Positions 48,770 to 64,000 of a DNA stretch of 64,000 nucleotides are shown in pieces. Both the position numbers and the translations under genes were made by a program. Each line of letters begins with the position of its first letter. Within the stretch, counting starts at the first letter, position 1. A model generated the notes under the pieces. That model was not told the DNA's origin. It saw nothing but the letters and a program-made list of their open reading frames with translations, and searched no databases. Source of the DNA: Candidatus Melainabacteria bacterium (GTDB lineage: Bacteria > Cyanobacteriota > Vampirovibrionia > 2-02-FULL-35-15); assembly GCA_023250195.1 (NCBI GenBank), contig JAHFBF010000003.1, positions 1 through 64,000 of the forward strand. Reading direction: 5' to 3'.

Positions 48770-51700
48770 TTGAATCCAAGTCTAATAATTTTAATTTTTT
48801 TAATTGCAACAAGTGTGTTGCCTGTATATTCAAAAGTTACTGAGGAAAATCTTCGTACAAGAGAGCTCCCATCTTTTAGGCACAACAAAAATTATATTGA
48901 ATTGCAGGGAATTAATACGCTTGACTTGCTTCTACAGTCAGATGCAAAAACAGTTTTTGTAGAAGTTACCGGGGCAGAAAGTAATAAGCTCCAAGTAGAT
49001 AAAAAGTCTGGAAAAGTATTTGGTCTTGAAATACTTCCACTACAAAGGCTAAGAGCTAGTCATCTTAATAACAATGGTGTTTATCACAAAAGAAAAAAAA
49101 GAGTGATTAATAAAATAAAGTTTAATTTGAAGAAGCGTTCAGCTAAACCCTTATTGATTCAAGGAAATAATTTTAAGATATTTAAAGTACCAGTTAGGGG
49201 TGTTTTCTCTGGTTCATACGGTTTGAGGGTCAGTGTTGACGGGGTTAGAAAAACAGAAACTCAGGTTATAACTAAAGAGAACTTTAGAATTGATTCAATA
49301 ACTCCATCAGTAATAAATGCTGGAGTTGAAAGCCAATTTACAATCATGGGAAAAGGTTTGGACTTGTTTACCAAGGTCTCTTTTTATGATCCTAATGGGA
49401 AAGAAGTCCAGATTACTGACATTGCAGAAGTAGAAAGTTTAGATGAAGAAACCTTAAAAGTTAAAGTATTATTTCCTGAAGATTACACCCCGGGTTTTCA
49501 TAATGTGACTATTAGTAGCTCTTTAAGGGCTAATGAAACTTCAACATTATTAAATGGCGTATTTATTGGAGATGTAACAGGAGCCACAGGTTCAGGTACA
49601 ATCGGGGTATGTGATGATTCTGATGCAAGTCTTATGATAAATGCAATTGAGCTGCTGCCGGAAGCAAACTCGGTAAGTGTATTTGATCCTACCTTATGTC
49701 ATTTAACAGTTGGTATTCCAAGAAGTAAAGATGAAGGTAGAGCTGTTGAAAACATAGATGTAAGCCCTGACCAAAGTAATAATTTACTTTCTATGGGATT
49801 TTGTAATACTTCGACAGATACATTAATGGTTTTTACAAATAATCTAACTCCTGGTTCTCAAGCAACTACATTTTTTGATCCTGTTAAATGTAATTTGACA
49901 TTTGGGATACCTGTTGGTTTTAATGGAGCCAGTGGTGTTAGTGGAGAAACGGGTGCCAGTGGAATGGGGCTTTGCAATGATAGAAATGCAATACCGACAA
50001 CTACAACAGTTACATTATCAGCAGACTCTGAAGCCACTATTGCTCTTGATCCTGTTGCATGTACTATAACTTACGGAATTCCAAAAGGAGAAACTGGTAC
50101 AGAGGGACAAACTGGTTTTAGCTGTTGGGATTTAAATTTAAATATGGCTTGTGATCTTTCTACTGAAGATAAAAATAGAGATAATCAATGTAATCCTTTT
50201 GATTGCCAGGGTGCTGCTGGTATAGAAGGAGAAGCAGGCATAGATTGCTGGGATTTAAATGAAAATAGAATAAAAGATTCAAGTGAAGATACTAATAGAG
50301 ATGGATTTGTTGATGTTAAAGATTGCTTAGGAGCTACAGGTGCTGCTGGTGCAACCGGATTAAACAGTTTAGTAAAAATTATAAATGAGCCTGCTGGTGT
50401 AAATTGTGAAACTGGCGGGAAAAAAGTTCAAGGCGGGCTTGATATAAATAGAAATAGCGTGCTTGATTCTTCAGAAATTACTCAAACTGAATATGTTTGT
50501 AATGGTGCAACAGGAGCTACAGGAATAACAGGAGCAAGTGGTTTAACTAATTTGGTTAATATTACGAATGAATCTAGTGGTTCCAATTGTGCAACTGGTG
50601 GAAAGAAAATACAAAATGGGTTTGACTCAAATAATAACAGTCTTTTAGATTCTTCAGAGGTAACCCAAATTGAGTATGTTTGTAATGGTGCTGTTGGTGA
50701 AGCTGGAACAAGTGGTTTAAACAGTTTAGTAAAAACTACAAATGAACCTCTTGGTTTAAATTGCAAAACCGGGGGAAAGAAAGTTCAAAGTGGACTTGAT
50801 TCAAATAATAATGGAGTATTGGATTCTTCAGAAGTTTCCCAAACTGAATATGTTTGCAATGGTGATACAGGAGCAAGTGGTTTAAACAGTTTAGTAAAAA
50901 CTACAAATGAACCTCTTGGTTCAAATTGTATCTCTGGTGGGGAAAAAATACAAAGTGGACTTGATTCAAATAATAATGGTGTATTAGATTCTTCAGAAGT
51001 CCTTCAAGCTCATTACATTTGTAATGGTGTTAGTGGTGCAGTTGGAGTAAGTGGGTTAAATAGTTTAGTGAAGATTACAAATGAACTAGCAGGAGCAAAC
51101 TGTGCAACTGGTGGAAAAAAGATTCAAGGTGGGCTTGATGTAAACAAAAATAATGTACTTGACTCTTCAGAAATTACTGAAACAGATTATGTTTGTAACG
51201 GAGCTATAGGAACAGCAGGATTAAATAGCCTGGTTAGCACCATTAATGAGCCTACTGGTTCAAATTGTACAACTGGAGGGAAGAAGATTCAGAGTGGACT
51301 TGATGTGAACAAAAATGGTGTGTTTGATTCTTCTGAAGTTTCCGAAACAGATTATATTTGTAATGGAGCTAGCGGTGAAGCTGGTGTAGAAGGTTTAAAT
51401 AGTTTAGTAAATGCTACTGACGAATCTGCTGGTTTAAATTGTGTTTCTGGTGGGGAAAAAATACAAAGTGGACTTGATTTTAATAAAAACAGCATATTAG
51501 ATTCTTCAGAGATTTCTCAAACTGTTTATGTTTGTGATGGAGAAAAAGGAGAAAGTGGTACAAGCGGGTTAAATAGTTTGGTATTTGCTAGCGATGAGCC
51601 AGCAGGCTCAAATTGTGCAACTGGTGGAAAAGAAATACAAAGTGGGTTGGATTCAAACAGGAATGGGATTTTAGATTCTGTTGAAGTTCTTGAGACTGAT

Positions 51701-52918
51701 TATATCTGCAATGGTGAAACTGGAATATCAGGAATTAATTGCTGGGACTTAAATGGAAATAGAATTAATGATTCAAATGAAGATATAAATAAGGATGGAA
51801 CATTTAACACTTTTGACTGTAATGCTTCACAAATTAAACCTCTTGAAGAAATAATAATTGACTGGATTAATGATTCTAACGAACAGAACTTTACGACTAC
51901 TACAGGTGATATGACTAGAATGGTTAAAATACCCTATTTTATTCATGATGGAATAGTTTACGGTGGTTTTTGGGTGGATAAATACGAAGCATCAAGGTCT
52001 GATGCTTCAGCAATTAGTGAAGGCACTTCAAATATTCCTACAAGCAAAAGAAATGTTGCTCCATGGACAAACTTAACACTAGCTGAAGCTCAAGCTGCTG
52101 CTAGTAGCAGACAGATAACTAATCTTGGTGAATGTCACTTAATTAAAATGAGAGAGTGGTATGCACTTTATTTAATTGGCAGATACACAAAACAAAATGG
52201 GGTTCTTGGTGCAACTGCTACAAGCGGTTGGAATGAAAGGGGGAACACAAGATCTGGTCAAGATGGTAGAGATAGTCTGTTGTTTACCTGTACAAATGAT
52301 CCTACTCAAGGACTTCTTAGTAGTGGCAGATGTCTTGCAGGAACAGGATATAAAAGCTGGGGGCATTTTTTAGATAGTACTGCTGTATCAAATGTTGGGC
52401 TTGGCTCCTTAGCTGGCCTTGGAGAATTATTAACCTTAAATGCAGATTCTATAAAAGATGATGGGAATGGGATTGGTGCTGATACATTTGATGGTGATTT
52501 TCAGATCTATGATTTGGTAGGAAATGTAAGAGAGTGGATTGATTTTACAGTAACAAAAACTCAAGATGGAACTATAATTGATGAATCATATCAAGGTGCA
52601 AATGAATCTTTACCATTTATACTAAATAACACGTTTTTTGGCTTTAGAGATGTAGCAACTGGCAGTGATACTGCACAAATAGACTTTGAAGGACTTGGAA
52701 TTCCGATAAGAGGTACAAATACTAATGTAACTGATTTAAATGGTGGAGCAAATGATGGAAAGCTCATTACTTCATCGACAAATCAAAAGTATGGAGTTGT
52801 TCGTGGAGGTTCATGGACAAGTGGTTTAAACTCAAGATCGCCATTGTATTTAAATATCAGCACTACTCCAATAATTCAAGAACCTGAAAGAGGTTTTAGA
52901 GTAATTTGTGATTTTTAA
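48770..52918 (+). CDS. Giant secreted protein: IPT/TIG-like, GxxGxxG spacers, eight EF-hand-like Cys repeats, C-terminal FGE-sulfatase-like domain
   Basis: 1382-aa ORF (TTG start); repeats GLNSLVKTTNEPLGSNC..GGKKIQSGLDSNNNGVLDSSEVSQTEYVCNG; C-terminal FWVDKYEAS...DFQIYDLVGNVREWID...GVVRGGSWTSG...GFRVICDF. Confidence 0.9.
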   Translation: MNPSLIILIFLIATSVLPVYSKVTEENLRTRELPSFRHNKNYIELQGINTLDLLLQSDAKTVFVEVTGAESNKLQVDKKSGKVFGLEILPLQRLRASHLNNNGVYHKRKKRVINKIKFNLKKRSAKPLLIQGNNFKIFKVPVRGVFSGSYGLRVSVDGVRKTETQVITKENFRIDSITPSVINAGVESQFTIMGKGLDLFTKVSFYDPNGKEVQITDIAEVESLDEETLKVKVLFPEDYTPGFHNVTISSSLRANETSTLLNGVFIGDVTGATGSGTIGVCDDSDASLMINAIELLPEANSVSVFDPTLCHLTVGIPRSKDEGRAVENIDVSPDQSNNLLSMGFCNTSTDTLMVFTNNLTPGSQATTFFDPVKCNLTFGIPVGFNGASGVSGETGASGMGLCNDRNAIPTTTTVTLSADSEATIALDPVACTITYGIPKGETGTEGQTGFSCWDLNLNMACDLSTEDKNRDNQCNPFDCQGAAGIEGEAGIDCWDLNENRIKDSSEDTNRDGFVDVKDCLGATGAAGATGLNSLVKIINEPAGVNCETGGKKVQGGLDINRNSVLDSSEITQTEYVCNGATGATGITGASGLTNLVNITNESSGSNCATGGKKIQNGFDSNNNSLLDSSEVTQIEYVCNGAVGEAGTSGLNSLVKTTNEPLGLNCKTGGKKVQSGLDSNNNGVLDSSEVSQTEYVCNGDTGASGLNSLVKTTNEPLGSNCISGGEKIQSGLDSNNNGVLDSSEVLQAHYICNGVSGAVGVSGLNSLVKITNELAGANCATGGKKIQGGLDVNKNNVLDSSEITETDYVCNGAIGTAGLNSLVSTINEPTGSNCTTGGKKIQSGLDVNKNGVFDSSEVSETDYICNGASGEAGVEGLNSLVNATDESAGLNCVSGGEKIQSGLDFNKNSILDSSEISQTVYVCDGEKGESGTSGLNSLVFASDEPAGSNCATGGKEIQSGLDSNRNGILDSVEVLETDYICNGETGISGINCWDLNGNRINDSNEDINKDGTFNTFDCNASQIKPLEEIIIDWINDSNEQNFTTTTGDMTRMVKIPYFIHDGIVYGGFWVDKYEASRSDASAISEGTSNIPTSKRNVAPWTNLTLAEAQAAASSRQITNLGECHLIKMREWYALYLIGRYTKQNGVLGATATSGWNERGNTRSGQDGRDSLLFTCTNDPTQGLLSSGRCLAGTGYKSWGHFLDSTAVSNVGLGSLAGLGELLTLNADSIKDDGNGIGADTFDGDFQIYDLVGNVREWIDFTVTKTQDGTIIDESYQGANESLPFILNNTFFGFRDVATGSDTAQIDFEGLGIPIRGTNTNVTDLNGGANDGKLITSSTNQKYGVVRGGSWTSGLNSRSPLYLNISTTPIIQEPERGFRVICDF

Positions 52919-53777: not shown

Positions 53778-54095
53778 CTAAGCAGATTTCTTGATTTTTT
53801 CTTTAGGGATAAAGTCAATTACTAGAGCAGCTCCAAGAGCTTTAGCAATTTCTTCGAGTTTAGATAGAGAGTGTCCTTCATAGTCAGCACTTTCAATTCT
53901 TGCTATTGCAGATTGAGTAGTTTTGACTTTTTTTGCAAGCCCTTGCTGTGTCATGCCAAGCTTTTCTCTAAGTTTTTTTATTTTTTGTGAAACTGAAAAC
54001 TTTGCTTCTTCTTCTTTATAAAGCCTTCTAAACTCTGGATCTTTCATATTTTCTTCTCTCCAAAGATCGTAATTTGTTTTAATTTTCTTACTCAT
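53778..54095 (-). CDS. XRE-family HTH antitoxin (HigA-like)
   Basis: KIKKLREKLGMTQQGLAKKVKTTQSAIARIESADYEGHSLSKLEEIAKALG. Confidence 0.88.
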   Translation of the reverse strand: MSKKIKTNYDLWREENMKDPEFRRLYKEEEAKFSVSQKIKKLREKLGMTQQGLAKKVKTTQSAIARIESADYEGHSLSKLEEIAKALGAALVIDFIPKEKIKKSA

Positions 54096-54444
54096 GATTT
54101 TGCCTCCTTATATAATCATTAATTCTATTCTCAGCGACTTCGATTTCCTTTCTTGGTGTTTGCTCTGTCTTCTTAGTAAATGCATGTAAAAGAACAAACT
54201 TCTTTTCAATATATGCAAAATAAAAGATTCGATAAATATTGGGTGATGCTTGAATTCTTAACTCTTTTAACTTAGTCCCAGAGAGATGTTTTGTGAATGG
54301 TTCTTTTAAAAGTGGCCCATGTTCAGCAAGCAAATCAATAACAAATTGAGCTTTGGTTTTATGCTTAATTGGCAAAGAATTCAAAAAGTCTGCTACTGGT
54401 TCTCTTCCTCCTTCTGTTTTATATATTTCTATATTCCACGACAC
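54088..54444 (-). CDS. RelE/HigB-type (phage Gp49-like) toxin
   Basis: REPVADFLNSLPIKHKTKAQFVIDLL...KELRIQASPNIYRIFYFAYIEKKFVLLHAFTKKTEQTP; overlaps antitoxin gene by 8 nt. Confidence 0.88.
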   Translation of the reverse strand: MSWNIEIYKTEGGREPVADFLNSLPIKHKTKAQFVIDLLAEHGPLLKEPFTKHLSGTKLKELRIQASPNIYRIFYFAYIEKKFVLLHAFTKKTEQTPRKEIEVAENRINDYIRRQNHE

Positions 54445-55640: not shown

Positions 55641-56894
55641 TTAGTTATTATCCACAAACTCTTTTAATATCAATTCTGTTCTGTTAAGTAATTCATCAAA
55701 AGTAAGTATTTGGACACCAGATAAACTATTCCTAAATAGCTCAAAACTATTAACTTGAGCAGTAGTGAGATCAGATAGTTTTCCTATAATTAGCACGGCA
55801 ACAGGATTAAAAGATTGGTATTTCCCTTTTGACAGAGTATGAAATTCTTTTTGTAGGTTATCTCTTTGATCTAATACTTGAATAAGACCCCCGGTGAGTT
55901 CTTTTCCCATAGAAAATACGTTGGGTCCTCTATAGGGTGATTTAAAATCAACTATTTTTTTCAAGGGAGTCTTAATTTCAATAATAAATACGTTATTTGT
56001 TAAATTGTTAGAATACAGAAAATCAGCAATTTTGCCTCCTTCATTATCAACTGATTTTCCACCAACATACGCTTTACTATGAACAAGTGATATAGGCATT
56101 GAAAGAATACTTGAGAAAATCCATGAATTATCTTCAAAAAACTTTTGACACTTTTCTTCGTATTGAGAACTATTAGTCTTTTGATTTATTAATTTAGAGA
56201 ATTCCTCTTTTACACTATTTAATTTTATAAAATTTACTTTTTCTTCAACTTTATAAATTAGCTTCTTTTCTTTGATTTCTTTTGGAATTAAATCTATAAG
56301 TACTTGGACATCTTTATCTGACAAATCTTCAGGGATTATTCCTTCAGATGACACTTTTGAAGATAAGTAGTCCTTTATATATTTTTTAGGCTTAGGTTTA
56401 AACTCCTTTTCTCCAAACATCTTTGACAACTCATTGTTTGCTATTTGTTTAAGATCTGCAGATTGTTTTAATTTAAAAGGTTGAATAATATCATAAGCCT
56501 TATCCAGACTTCTGGTGTTAAAAGTAATGGTTCCTTTTTTAATACCTGAAGAATCTTTTTTAGAAATTACAACTTTATTTATTGATGACTTTGGTTCTAG
56601 CTCATATATCAATGGCGATAAAATTTTAGTAAACCCTAAACCAAAGCTTGAATTTTTAAAAACCCCTCTAACATCTTCAGGAGAGACTTCTCTAAATTCA
56701 ATAGATCTTATATTTGTATACTTCTGTTTTCCTTGCTTACTAAATGGAAAATGAATTTCTTTTCTTCCAGTTTTGAAAACTTCTCTACTTTTAACATCAA
56801 AGGAATTAATTTCGTCATGATAAAAATAAGTCTTCTTTGTTGAAGTTTCCTTTTTTAAATATTCGCCTTTTTTCGGTTTCTCAGCCATATTCAT
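55641..56894 (-). CDS. Shedu (SduA)-like DUF4263 nuclease
   Basis: C-terminal PD-(D/E)XK-type core: FFEDNSWIFSSIL...NEGGKIADFLYSNNLTNNVFIIEIKTP...GGLIQVLDQRDNL. Confidence 0.8.
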   Translation of the reverse strand: MNMAEKPKKGEYLKKETSTKKTYFYHDEINSFDVKSREVFKTGRKEIHFPFSKQGKQKYTNIRSIEFREVSPEDVRGVFKNSSFGLGFTKILSPLIYELEPKSSINKVVISKKDSSGIKKGTITFNTRSLDKAYDIIQPFKLKQSADLKQIANNELSKMFGEKEFKPKPKKYIKDYLSSKVSSEGIIPEDLSDKDVQVLIDLIPKEIKEKKLIYKVEEKVNFIKLNSVKEEFSKLINQKTNSSQYEEKCQKFFEDNSWIFSSILSMPISLVHSKAYVGGKSVDNEGGKIADFLYSNNLTNNVFIIEIKTPLKKIVDFKSPYRGPNVFSMGKELTGGLIQVLDQRDNLQKEFHTLSKGKYQSFNPVAVLIIGKLSDLTTAQVNSFELFRNSLSGVQILTFDELLNRTELILKEFVDNN

Positions 56895-56926
56895 TCACAT
56901 CTAATATTTGAGGACCATAATTCGAA

Positions 56927-57793
56927 TCACATCCACTCTGCTAGGTAAGATATTACAGTTGTATCGTCAAAGTAGTGAAACCTTTCTCTTATCTCAACAA
57001 ATACTTGATCTGATAAATACTCTACCTGCCTTTCTTTATAAATCAGCCTTTGTAACCATTCAGGAGATTCATCTAAAAGTTTTTGCATTAATTGTTCATT
57101 ATTAGATGGAGCTTCAATATATGTATAAAATTCATCTCTCACAAGCTTATCCGATTCCCCCTTTTCCGGATCATTTGGTGGATATTGAATAATTTGCCCC
57201 ATATTATCTCTGTTTAATACAATAATGAAATCCTGTACTCGGAATGCCCTTAACTTAAACACAGGAACTTGGAATTCTCTAATGGAAAGATTACCATAGT
57301 ACCCAATCTCATTTAGCTCATTTTTAACCCTTATTAAATTTTTTCCTAGAACTTCAAGAGCTTCGCTACCAGAAGTCAAAACAATATATTCATTAGGGTA
57401 TTTAAAATTATTAAGGATTTTAATTATTTGTTCTTTTTTTACGGTTTCACTTTTATTTTTTAGTCTCAAGAATATATAAAATTCTTCGTTCCAAGCTAAA
57501 TTCTGTGCTTCATACGAACCAAAAGCTGGTGGAAAACTATTTACATGTAAAAAATACTCTTTGTTTTCTACTTTTCTAATTGCAAATCTGCCTGTATTGA
57601 AGGGCTTTCCTTTATCTAGTTTTATAGGGTGTTTATCCTTACTAGGTCTATAAAAACCATAGTAATTAAAAATCTTCTTAAGTTTAGCAACTCTATGATA
57701 GGCCGAAAAAAAACGATCTAAAAAACAATTAACAACTTCTTGCTCTAATTTACCAGATGATTGTTCTATCTTTTCCATTTCACTACCCAACAT
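56927..57793 (-). CDS. Uncharacterised protein in Shedu-like operon
   Basis: 288-aa ORF, co-directional, 32 nt upstream of the DUF4263 gene. Confidence 0.7.
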   Translation of the reverse strand: MLGSEMEKIEQSSGKLEQEVVNCFLDRFFSAYHRVAKLKKIFNYYGFYRPSKDKHPIKLDKGKPFNTGRFAIRKVENKEYFLHVNSFPPAFGSYEAQNLAWNEEFYIFLRLKNKSETVKKEQIIKILNNFKYPNEYIVLTSGSEALEVLGKNLIRVKNELNEIGYYGNLSIREFQVPVFKLRAFRVQDFIIVLNRDNMGQIIQYPPNDPEKGESDKLVRDEFYTYIEAPSNNEQLMQKLLDESPEWLQRLIYKERQVEYLSDQVFVEIRERFHYFDDTTVISYLAEWM

Positions 57794-57798
57794 AAACT

Positions 57799-58020
57799 CT
57801 ATTCTGAAACAATATTATACTTTTCCTTCCTTAGTCTTTCTTGTATAGGCTCAAATTCTGGATACCCAACAAGCGGTTGGTTTAGCTCTATAGGACTAGC
57901 ATAAAACTGAACATTGTAAACTGAGTTTCCGAATTCTTTTGCTACTCCTTCCGTTTCAAACATTCCTATAAATTCTGGATGTCCGTTTTCTACACTCTTA
58001 AATAGTGCATAGTATGTCAT
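57799..58020 (-). CDS. Uncharacterised small protein at head of Shedu-like operon
   Basis: 73-aa ORF, 5 nt upstream of the 288-aa gene, preceded by ggagga RBS on the minus strand. Confidence 0.65.
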   Translation of the reverse strand: MTYYALFKSVENGHPEFIGMFETEGVAKEFGNSVYNVQFYASPIELNQPLVGYPEFEPIQERLRKEKYNIVSE

Positions 58021-58131
58021 TTAATATATCCTCCGGTTAATTAAATTCAAACACAACTTTTTGTAAAAATCAAGACTTGAAAGGCTTGACAAAATTAAAA
58101 ATTCAATAATTTGTGTTAAGTAAAAAATAAA

Positions 58132-58372: not shown

Positions 58373-59215
58373 TTATTTAGGAACTCCTGCTTCATCTAAT
58401 TTACCCATCAATAAACTTGCAACAAAAATTAGATGAATAGCTCTACTCTTACTAATGATTAAATTATTATGTGCTTTTGGATTTCTTATACCAATCATTG
58501 AACCTGCAAAAATTTGCATATATCCTTGCTGAATATTTTTTCCTGTTTCTGTGGATAAATCGTCCAGTGGTATAACAGGACTATTACCTGAAAAAGCTTT
58601 GTACATTAAATCTGCCCCATCAAGTTCCTGACCAATTTTTGACTTATAATATTTTTTTATTCTATTATTTACTTCTTTAAAAGCTGATTCAACCGCGTCA
58701 GCAAAATGACCATCTTCAAGCTTCTTTTTCGAAACCTTTATAATTTTGGAATGAATGATTGACCACAAATCAGTTCCTTTTTCAGTTTTACTACCATTGA
58801 GGCCATTAGTCTCAAGATTTAAATATTGTAATTGAGGCATAATTTTTTCAGTTACTTCTTTATCTAAAATCTCAGTATGTCTAACAATAAAACCGTAATC
58901 TTGTTGAACTCCATTATGATATTTCCCCTGTAAAAATGTTTCAATTTCATTTATCCTACCCACCAATACAATTTCTTGATGTGCGATTGTTCCAACGGCA
59001 TCATCAGGCAAATTTTCAAATGAACGGCTTTTAAGGTCTTTGAACAGCGAAGCTAATCTTTTTATTATAGGTATTAGTTTTTTAAACGAATATTGCCCTT
59101 CTATGTTCATCCTTTCAAATAGTGCATCTAAATCAATTTTACCTAATTTGTCAGCATACTCATTAAATTGCTGTCGTCTAGGATCTTTTACTTTTATCTT
59201 TTTTAATGTAGCCAT
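58373..59215 (-). CDS. TIGR02391/Hypoth_Ymh-family protein
   Basis: C-terminal AGSMIGIRNPKAHNNLIISKSRAIHLIFVASLLMGKLDEAG. Confidence 0.75.
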   Translation of the reverse strand: MATLKKIKVKDPRRQQFNEYADKLGKIDLDALFERMNIEGQYSFKKLIPIIKRLASLFKDLKSRSFENLPDDAVGTIAHQEIVLVGRINEIETFLQGKYHNGVQQDYGFIVRHTEILDKEVTEKIMPQLQYLNLETNGLNGSKTEKGTDLWSIIHSKIIKVSKKKLEDGHFADAVESAFKEVNNRIKKYYKSKIGQELDGADLMYKAFSGNSPVIPLDDLSTETGKNIQQGYMQIFAGSMIGIRNPKAHNNLIISKSRAIHLIFVASLLMGKLDEAGVPK

Positions 59216-59218
59216 TAT

Positions 59219-62200
59219 TTAAACCCTAACAGCACTTTTCACCTTATGTAATTCAACCAAACCATCAATCCATATTTTTAAAGCAGCTTCAGCTTTCTTT
59301 TTGTCAGTTAATTCTGCACCTTCTTGATGGGCAACATATTGTTTTCTGAAATTATTTATTTCTTTTATATAATTATGAAGCTTTGAGTTTGATAAATCTT
59401 TAAAAGCATCTCTTAGAGCAAGAAAAATCCCTTGAATACCATCATCCCTGCCGCTGGCATAATCCAAGCAGAATTTTAAAAGTCCAATCTGTGATTTACC
59501 AGCACGATATAAAAGCATCTTTTTAAGATTGTCTGCAGTTTCTTTTAAATTGGTTTTTCCACCATAATAATCAGGTTCAAAAAAATCTTTTCTTCCTGAC
59601 TCAGAATCAGGGATATAAGGAAGTAATGTATCTATTATTAAAGCTTTTGTTGAATCATCTAATGGTCTTATAAGAGGTGTAAAAACGTGGGAGAAAGAAA
59701 AATTTTGGTCTCCTTTTTTTACAGCTTCTTCAAACAGAGTCACCGAATGCCTGATTGCTCTTTGGTATAGCTCTGGCAGTTTATTATAAATCCCAAGATC
59801 AATATAATGGTTCAGTCCTATTGACTGTTCGACCTGTACATCATCAAGATCAAGTTTAAGCTGTCCAGATTCAGCTTCTTTTAAAAGACTGACCAGATCA
59901 GGCTTACATGTCCTAATCAAGTCTTTAAGTTTGTTTGAATTAAAATTAGCAAACGTTGTTTGCTTAACAAATAAATAATCCCATTTAGATTTTTCAGTAG
60001 TCGCTGATTTACACCAAGCATTACCGTCTCTTGCCTTAAATGCTTGTTCTCTATCATGCAGATCTTTTGTTTCTACTAAGACATACTCACCTGTTTTCAT
60101 TCTAACTATAAAATCAGGGATATATATGTTTGTTCTAAGTTCAGAACTTAAGTAATCAATTTTTAGACTTTGTGGACCTGCATTTTTACAAAAAGAGACT
60201 ACATCATCAGCGTTTCTTAAAAAGTTTGCAAATCTTTCTTCAAAAGAATGATTACATGTAACGAGATTAAACGGAGTATTTTTGGCTTCAATAGCAGGTT
60301 TATTAATTGAAAATGTTACTTGAAAGGGTTTCCAGCTAGTTACAGATCTGCTCCCACCTTCAATTTTTCTTTTTTCTTTCTTTGTTGTCTTTGCTCTTAA
60401 GATAGGCACAAAGACTGCAAAGATATGTTCTCTTACATCAGAATCACCCAGTCTACTTATTAGTCTTTGATCATTAATATCTACTTTCTTTTCAAAAAGA
60501 ATATCTGTTAAAAAGTCTTTTAATAAAGGTGCAAGGAGCTGATGTAATCCACTAAGCCCTGTAAGCTTTTCAATGTATTCTCTGTAATAAGAAATAGATC
60601 CGAAGCCAGAAGAAAGCAGTTCTAACTTTATTTTCATTTTTTCTATGATTTCATCTGTAAGTAACGCTCTTCCTTCATAATCTATTTCCATTCTTCCTTT
60701 GTCACCTAAAGGAAGTTTGTCATATTGTTCAAATTGTTTTTTTATTTCCTCAATTGATATCTCAACTTCTTTCCTTCTTGTATATTCTCTGGTTAGTGAA
60801 GGTATTGTTAAATCAAGATTACTCACATCTTTTTTTTCTTTGTCCACAAAAATTGTTATTGTGGTTTTGGGAATATCTTCTATGTCCAGGACTTCTATAG
60901 GCAGACCTTCCTGACTAAGTTGTTCATCATAAAGACTTACAAACATTGGATGTTCTACTACAGCTACGATTTCATTTGCTCCACCAGAGCCAGGTGGAGT
61001 CATCCTTCTTAGTCCTCTTCCAAGCGTTTGTTCAGGCAGTATCTTTGAAGCTGCAGTCAATGGTCTAAGTGGAACTATTGTGGTTACATTTCTTACATCC
61101 CAACCCTCTCTCAGCATTAAAACAGATACAATGCAACAGTATTGACTTGAATTTGAATCCAGTTCTCTTGAAAGCTTTCTAAGTTCTTTTAAATCCTCAT
61201 CACTTATTTCTTTTTCACTTTCAATAAACTCTATTTTTTTATTTTTACCTTTTCCTGTTATTTTCTTTTTAACTTTTAGGTTTGTGTGTAAGTTAAGTGT
61301 CTTATTGTTTAATTCTTTGAAAACAGGATCAGAGTTTAGTCTTCTTGCAATGTCATCAGCAGCATCTGTGCTTTCCGTCATTATAAAAAGAAGAGGCTTT
61401 TTGCCTGATTTTTCCCACTCCTCTTTTGATGCCTTCCATCGCTCATAGCCTATTTTCAGATGTTGTTCATATACTATCGATGCATCGTCACTTGCTCTTT
61501 CAGTAAGCTTGTCACCTCTTCCTATTACGGGAGTTTTTACTATACCTCCGTCAACTGCTTCTCCAAGTGGAGTATCACAAACTATATGCTTAAATAATTG
61601 TCCTTTGTTATCCTTAGGTGTAGCTGAGAAATCAAGCTGTGCAAATATTCCGTCCCCACCTTTTTTCTTGACTTCTTCATTTAGGAACAATATTGCTTCA
61701 TTCCATGCTGAATCAGGATCCCATACATGGTGAGCCTCATCATTCAGAAGCATAATCTTTTTATGTGATGTGATTTTTTCTCTTAAAGATTCACCAATAT
61801 CAAGTGCTTTTGATTTTGAGACTGGAGGACCAGCCCATTTATAAAGTTCATCTTCTTTGTTGTTTTTCCTTTTGTCAAGATCATATAGCCTATGAATATT
61901 TGTCAGATAAAGTATTCCGCCTGTATTTGCTCCACTTACTTCATCTTGAAGAACTACAGATAGATTCCAGTCTCCCTTCCATGCAGGTGGAATTAAAGGA
62001 TCATTGTCAAATATTTTTCCATTTTCGAAATCTTCTTTTAAACGTTCAAAAACAGTAATGCCTGGTGCAATAGCAAGAAAATGTCTTGGCATTGGTGAGT
62101 TAGATTCGTAAAGAGAGTGGAAATAACTCCAGACGATTGCAAGACTCATTACTTTTGTTTTTCCAGCACCAGTTGCAATTTTAAAGGCATATCTAGTCCA

Positions 62201-62641
62201 GAGTTCTTCTTCCGGGCTTATACCTGCAGATTCTATTTCGCTATCATCTCCACTAAATTCATAAATAAGAGAGGATAAATTATCTATATTTCTGCATTCT
62301 TTTAGATAAATTAATGTTTCAATTGCTTCACGCTGACAAAAGTAATATTTAAATGGGTTACTTTCACCATCACTACTTTTAATAGTGTGATCTCTAAAAA
62401 ACCAGTGATGCAAAAGTTCTCTTGTAGTTTCGGATGCACCAGGATAACTATTGTTTCTCCACTCTTTAACCCAAGCTCTTAAATTCTGAGCAATTGTAAT
62501 AGGGCTTGGTCTGCGTGCATTAATTATTTGGGCTGGAGTACCCGGTGTTATAGATTTTATTCTATGCTTTGTTGGTTCTTCATATGGAGCAAACAAGGAC
62601 TCTAGTGCTGAAGGATTAATTACATGTTTAGTCATAATCAA
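59219..62641 (-). CDS. Type III Res-like DEAD/DEAH helicase-nuclease
   Basis: [50 protein letters not shown] helicase motifs; [21 protein letters not shown] nuclease motif. Confidence 0.88.
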
Positions 62642-64000
62642 TGTCCACAGTTATCGAAGTATCTGCTCCAAAAACATCAATAACTTTTACACAAGCAGTA
62701 TATTTCCCTTTTTTAGGATAAACATAATTTTGATCTGAGATCAATTTGAGAGTTCTATCTTTCCTTGTTCGATAATCTTGCCAGTGATGTTCAAATGGCT
62801 TTCCAGGCTTATAATCAAAGTCCACTGCCCAAAAATCAATAAAGTCAAATCCATTGTCTGATGCACGCTCCCTTAATGCTTTTAGTTCTTTTTCAGGCAC
62901 TTCAGCAAGTGAGGGAATGTAATCAGTTAACTTAATATCTACCGTCTTTTTTCCTTTATCCCCTTTTTGATAAACGGGTTTCGCCTCCAAAAGGGCTATT
63001 TCGAAAAATACAACTTCACTTCTATTCTTTTCCATTATTTCCCTAGGTATTTTTACAAGCTTTATTTTTATATTTTCTTCAGCCTCGATTTCACTACAGA
63101 TAAACTTTAAGTCCATTTCAAATTCCCATGCAAGTAAATGAACTTCTTTTGCTCCTAATTCCCTAGCAGACTTAGCAACAACTTTTACCTCATCTCGTGT
63201 TAGAAGAGTATCAATATTATCCACGTGGACGAGTGCCTGTCCTTTTTTACCATGTATAAGAGGTGATGGAGGATCGTTTATTTCCTCTGCCTTATAAAAT
63301 TTAAGTACAAGTTTCCTATGCTCTTCATCTGCCCCTTGTAGATCTTTCATCTGCCACCACTGGCGTTCATAGCGACCCAGATTATAAACATCAAATGAAC
63401 GATAAGATTTTTCTTCTTTGTAAAGCTGTCTTTGAACTTCAATTAATCTTTTACGTGATGTATGAATAGCAAAACGTCCTAGATCAGCCATAACCCAGCG
63501 ACGTCCAAGTTTCTCAGCAACAGCACCAGTAGTACCACTCCCACAAAACAAGTCTGCAACTATACCACCTTCGGTTGAGGATGCTTTTATAATTCTTTCT
63601 AGTAAAGCTTCAGGTTTTTGAGTAGGATAATCTACTCTTTCAGTAGCCCCCGATTGTATAGATTGTATATCAAACCATACATCTTCTGGTGTTTTCCCTT
63701 CATCCAAATAATATCTGTATAATTTTTTTTTCCCCGTTCCCCATTTTTCTACATATTCTCTACCATCTTTATCAATACCCATTCTTCCACCATAATTTTT
63801 GCCTGATTCATCCTGCTTGTGTGGTGTAAACGGTAATCTCACAGCATCTTCATTGAATAAGGGATTCGAAGTTTTACCATATAAAAAAATCGTATTGTGT
63901 TTCCTTGCAAAGTACTTCTGTCCTTTCCCACCTTGACTAAAGTACCAAATAATTTCATTTATAAAATTTCCTTTACCAAAAATTTCGTCAAGTATGGAAT
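62628..64000 (-). CDS. Site-specific DNA methyltransferase (Mod-like), 5' truncated by window end
   Basis: [63 protein letters not shown]; reading frame stays open to 64000 beyond the ORF-track start ([51 protein letters not shown]). Confidence 0.9.

Follow-up and report, generated by a model that had tools for sequence, protein, structure and literature searches.

Gene content and packing of the run

The analysed stretch of 64,000 nucleotides (the window) lies on contig C2 of a 2.2-Mb genome and contains three minus-strand open reading frames (ORFs) of 73, 288 and 417 aa, in that order and with gaps of 5 and 32 nt, as the first-pass annotation had drawn them. The first of these (57799..58020) encodes a small acidic protein with a pI of 4.8 and is probably the first gene of the transcript, the second (56927..57793) encodes a 288-aa protein, and the third (55641..56894) is sduA, which encodes a Shedu nuclease. 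A divergent intergenic region of 111 nt (58021..58131) probably holds the promoter of the run; it contains no more promoter-like sites than expected by chance.

A scan of the run found no terminator-like sites between the three genes, and co-transcription is therefore plausible. The packing of the genes is nevertheless ordinary, as 10 of the 24 same-strand neighbour gaps within the window are of 32 nt or less, and close spacing inside a defence island says little in favour of genes working as one system. A HigBA-like pair recognised by family search is located near the run (53778–54444), and a pair of Type III restriction–modification (R-M) genes together with a Ymh (TIGR02391) gene occupy the window from 58373 to 64000. 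The Ymh gene lies 3 nt downstream of res and matches PD-Lambda-3_B in PADLOC as well as an Aga HEPN model, and is possibly an effector appended to the Type III R-M operon.

The 73-aa ORF is preceded by a good Shine-Dalgarno sequence, GGAGG (ccGGAGGatatattaaATG), and has a codon score of 0.247 which falls within the range of spurious ORFs; the evidence that it is a real gene consists of this ribosome-binding site and its position. Its product belongs to no family in Pfam, NCBIfam, PADLOC or PHROGs, and no relative was found in 385 other genomes of the phylum or near 31 distinct SduA relatives.

The SduA nuclease and its relatives

The 417-aa product is a genuine Shedu nuclease of the ordinary kind. 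In the Pfam search it matches PF14082 (SduA_C, DUF4263) with E=2e-25 and 90.3 bits, against a cut-off of 27, and 18 SduA models in PADLOC recognise it (the best is PDLC00384, E=5e-65, over residues 76–410), while a sequence match in the PDB is to the Bacillus cereus SduA 8ti8 (E=2e-31). The C-terminal PD-(D/E)XK domain covers residues ~245–410 with the catalytic D291, E306 and K308 intact, and in an alignment of 22 SduA sequences E246, E306, I307 and K308 are invariant and D291 is at least 90% conserved. The AlphaFold2 model has a mean pLDDT of 69.5, with most of the nuclease blocks between 80 and 94, and the best nine Foldseek matches to it are all SduA (8ti9/8ti8/8ps4), strong significance being reached for SduA structures alone. 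The Shedu-like nuclease core read from the sequence at first pass is thus borne out by profiles, fold and catalytic residues, and so is the long N-terminal region that had been noted alongside it. This region begins with 47 disordered-looking residues, contains a second modelled domain at residues ~48–168 (pLDDT ~75), and from residue ~77 on is homologous to the ~470-aa SduA proteins of Proteobacteria. Because of this homology, SduA would seem to bring its own regulatory domain. The ribosome-binding site of sduA is weak.

The B. cereus SduA (8ti8, 8ti9) has the same PD-(D/E)XK nuclease domain (Foldseek E=9.5e-14, TM-score 0.77 over the nuclease domain), but the sequence match spans only residues 205–411 of the window SduA and the N-terminal regions differ. 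Likeness to the E. coli SduA (8ps4, 8ps5), which is described as a type I protein sensing DNA ends, also lies in the nuclease domain (profile E=6e-13, fold E=1.4e-12), whereas the two proteins have 20% identity and superpose poorly over the whole chain (rmsd 17.8 Å). A two-part layout is held in common with the ~470-aa Proteobacteria SduA proteins (e.g. those of loci L018, L031 and L038), with homology running from window residue ~77 to ~410, although the N terminus of the window SduA is ~50 residues shorter; these proteins have AAA/UvrD, GHKL or other genes as neighbours and never the 288-aa or 73-aa genes. VcSduA, described as a type I-D Shedu with a fused GHKL ATPase (PMC12137116), likewise carries the DUF4263 nuclease at its C terminus but under a different N-terminal regulator, and is a single gene with a GHKL domain, whereas the window run has no such domain. 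Shedu regulation is presented in the same account as modular, with diverse N-terminal domains that include the fused ATPase of VcSduA, and a review outlines how type I Shedu senses DNA ends via an N-terminal clamp (PMC12904381). By analogy, the window SduA may sense DNA ends in the same way.

In the Rhizobiales, a GHKL ATPase gene (HATPase_c_3, PF13589) ends 7–10 nt upstream of sduA in L019 (2180–5585), L031 (3614–7053) and L032 (3681–7053), and the same gene adjoins sduA in L050 (3648–6837). The SduA proteins encoded behind this gene have an N-terminal region homologous to that of the window SduA, and the pairing, which may represent the fused GHKL-Shedu protein VcSduA divided over two genes, means that multi-gene arrangements are possible for SduA. 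An obligate linkage of the two genes was rejected, as some copies of the ATPase gene have no sduA nearby: among eight plasmid records with the GHKL ATPase, one of which lacks annotation, SduA adjoins it in three and no sduA is annotated within 3 kb in another four (L061–L064). We also rejected a reading of the 73-aa and 288-aa genes as a GHKL sensor split in the manner of the Rhizobiales, as no HATPase match was obtained for the 288-aa protein. Other settings of sduA include one beside OLD-like AAA and helicase genes (L018), two in which it precedes very large helicase-like genes (L016 and L020), and one in Candidatus Aminicenantes where it sits inside a Type III R-M operon (L043, 568–7548), in the order mod, sduA, a gene that is RhuM-like by eye and a res-like helicase, with 2-nt gaps. 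As SduA travels among many defence cassettes, an accidental run with the 73-aa and 288-aa genes is an expected arrangement.

The 288-aa protein and its domain family

No family in Pfam, NCBIfam, PADLOC or PHROGs matches the 288-aa protein, and no close relative was found in plasmids, phages, viral contigs or 84,980 species genomes (one each), where the viral-contig and species-genome scans are sensitive to close relatives only. The stand-alone form is therefore seen only here, beside sduA, among the collections searched. Remote homologues exist, and the ORF can therefore be taken as a real protein. These are the C-terminal ~280 residues of a 952-aa and a 986-aa protein from two genomes of the same phylum (G113 and G087), a 1021-aa protein on a Pseudanabaena galeata plasmid (WP_281010100.1), to which proteins encoded in same-phylum genomes of 4–6 Mb are close, and a 1115-aa protein from G937, the one genome with a homologue among 289 from the phylum to which a Methylococcaceae genome belongs (Pseudomonadota). 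The likeness of the same-phylum proteins to the plasmid protein suggests Cyanobacteriota as the phylum of the window. When the window sequence is left out of the family profile, the 288-aa protein is still recovered at E=1.3e-27, and corresponding leave-one-out profiles recover every other member at 1e-53 or better, down to 1e-73; the family is therefore firm. Further weak matches (E 8e-4 to 8e-3), seen in G194, G121 and G126 and at another site in G000, lacked support from this profile and were discarded.

The homology takes in nearly the whole length of the 288-aa protein but only the last third of the ~950–1115-aa proteins, which alone have transmembrane-like segments at the N terminus and an extended central region. 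Several hydrophobic segments occur in the first ~180 residues of the three cyanobacterial-type fused proteins, and the proteobacterial 1115-aa protein gives a similar N-terminal reading by eye, while its tblastn alignment with the Pseudanabaena plasmid protein is limited to the C-terminal part. Judged by these sequence comparisons, certain membrane-anchored proteins found in Cyanobacteriota and Pseudomonadota end in an undescribed domain, of which the 288-aa protein is a stand-alone copy. The four fused members (L008, 7813–10671; L009, 5802–8762; L057, 7920–10985; L067, 7359–10706) are encoded by solitary genes which, unlike the window gene, have neither a 73-aa companion nor SduA nearby. We note that the homologue in L009 adjoins a Septu/AriA-like ATPase pair, that in L057 adjoins PIN/OloA-like genes and that in L067 adjoins a Mutator transposase.

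Defence libraries recognise none of the 288-aa protein, the 73-aa protein and the fused homologues. An AlphaFold2 model of the 288-aa protein alone was set aside (pLDDT 34.6), and PDB and Pfam suggestions of HeH, EF-hand, aIF2-beta and mRNA cap methyltransferase for the 288 domain and the 73-aa protein were rejected because they were short, differed from member to member or fell far short of the cut-offs. The domain is the sole mildly novel element at the locus and, being rare, unnamed, present in solitary membrane-anchored proteins of two phyla and free-standing in a defence island, it would make a reasonable target for a defence screen.

Relationship between the three genes and the wider island

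The first-pass annotation had put the run forward as a possible multi-gene Shedu variant, on which reading the 288-aa and 73-aa genes should co-occur with DUF4263 elsewhere. We compared 31 distinct SduA neighbourhoods, most with 4–6 kb on each side, taken from a pattern-based SduA-alignment scan of species genomes (34 loci) and from plasmid and same-phylum loci. Using the 288 family profile and a search with the 73-aa protein, no homologue of either was found beside SduA in any of the 31, whose SduA proteins are distant relatives with 27–48% identity. The 288 domain is also absent from all 23 whole genomes that carry an SduA relative, and none of the four other 288-domain loci has SduA within the several kb inspected on each side. 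Across 386 genomes of the phylum, two have other 288-domain proteins and two have other SduA proteins, with no genome in both groups. Conserved linkage of either gene with sduA was thus not found, and the multi-gene variant did not stand up to this comparison; as the two genes were not found with Shedu elsewhere in the searched genomes, a chance neighbourhood in a defence island is likelier than a three-gene system. It should be added that a recent, lineage-specific partnership would escape detection, given the distance of the SduA relatives and the pattern-based scan.

We therefore think it probable that the run ends in a single-gene Shedu nuclease and that its first two genes are a separate and unrelated cassette. 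SduA, like type I Shedu, would act as an oligomer; on recognising some feature of invading DNA (DNA ends in the case of the E. coli SduA, as described), its own N-terminal domain would free the C-terminal PD-(D/E)XK nuclease, which would then nick this DNA. As for the 288-aa protein, it would be a detached, soluble copy of its domain, probably a sensing or interaction module independent of SduA, with the 73-aa product as its probable small companion. On this account the locus contributes a further Shedu nuclease, from a lineage with small genomes that probably belongs to Cyanobacteriota.

A lineage-specific three-gene Shedu, with the nuclease controlled through binding to SduA of the 288-aa protein as a detached sensor, of the acidic 73-aa protein as an inhibitor, or of both, seems to us unlikely. 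It would fit the common strand, the narrow gaps and the lack of a terminator, and the weak ribosome-binding site of sduA is consistent with coupled translation; the modular regulation described for Shedu, with the ATPase fused in VcSduA, and the Rhizobiales GHKL gene just upstream of sduA offer precedents. Against this stand the 31 neighbourhoods and the other 288-domain loci, in which the partners are never together, the N-terminal domain that SduA already has in common with relatives lacking 288-aa or 73-aa neighbours, and a 73-aa gene without any relative. Were the partnership true, Shedu could receive its signal from a separate protein. The wider proposal that the 288 domain is a new immune sensor module, usually fused to a membrane anchor but here detached and, with a small acidic protein, in control of a Shedu nuclease, strikes us as quite doubtful.

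The 73-aa and 288-aa genes might instead be a two-gene defence or toxin–antitoxin cassette of their own, functionally apart from SduA, and this would refine the single-gene interpretation rather than exclude it. The gap between them is the tightest of the run, the 73-aa product is small and acidic, the setting includes the HigBA-like pair and the Type III R-M and Ymh genes, and fused homologues adjoin the Septu/AriA-like ATPase or PIN/OloA-like genes of L009 and L057. Yet the fused homologues are encoded singly and lack a 73-aa companion, there is no defence-library match, and searches of Pfam, NCBIfam, PADLOC and PHROGs place neither product in any known family of toxins or antitoxins; we regard such a cassette as distinctly improbable. 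That the 288-aa gene is a decayed and now functionless remnant of a ~1000-aa membrane-anchored protein is very improbable indeed: the missing membrane half and a homology confined to the final third of the fused proteins would agree with decay, but the frame of 288 codons is intact, the homology is near full-length and the spacing to the upstream gene is tight.

The single-gene interpretation places the run in a defence island. Past the window edge, the same contig encodes a WYL regulator, a PDDEXK_1 nuclease, a Toprim protein and a large serine recombinase, and the run, lying in this island beside the recombinase gene, is probably part of an integrated element. No exact repeat of at least 12 nt was found between the two flanks, and the search for an empty site found no relative with the left-flank gene. 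The recombinase gene (L058, 11837–13513, plus strand) overlaps at its 3' end a group I intron on the opposite strand (RF00028; L058, 13499–13709, corresponding to ~76998–77208 of contig C2; 94.4 bits, E=1.9e-24). By eye, this intron splits a tRNA gene whose exons join as tRNA-Asn(GUU); ARAGORN did not report the intron-split gene. Within the window, a 1382-aa ORF (48770–52918) was seen by eye to contain collagen-like G-x-T/G-x-A repeats and DxNxD repeats resembling calcium loops, and to end in a C-terminal region that resembles the formylglycine-generating-enzyme fold.
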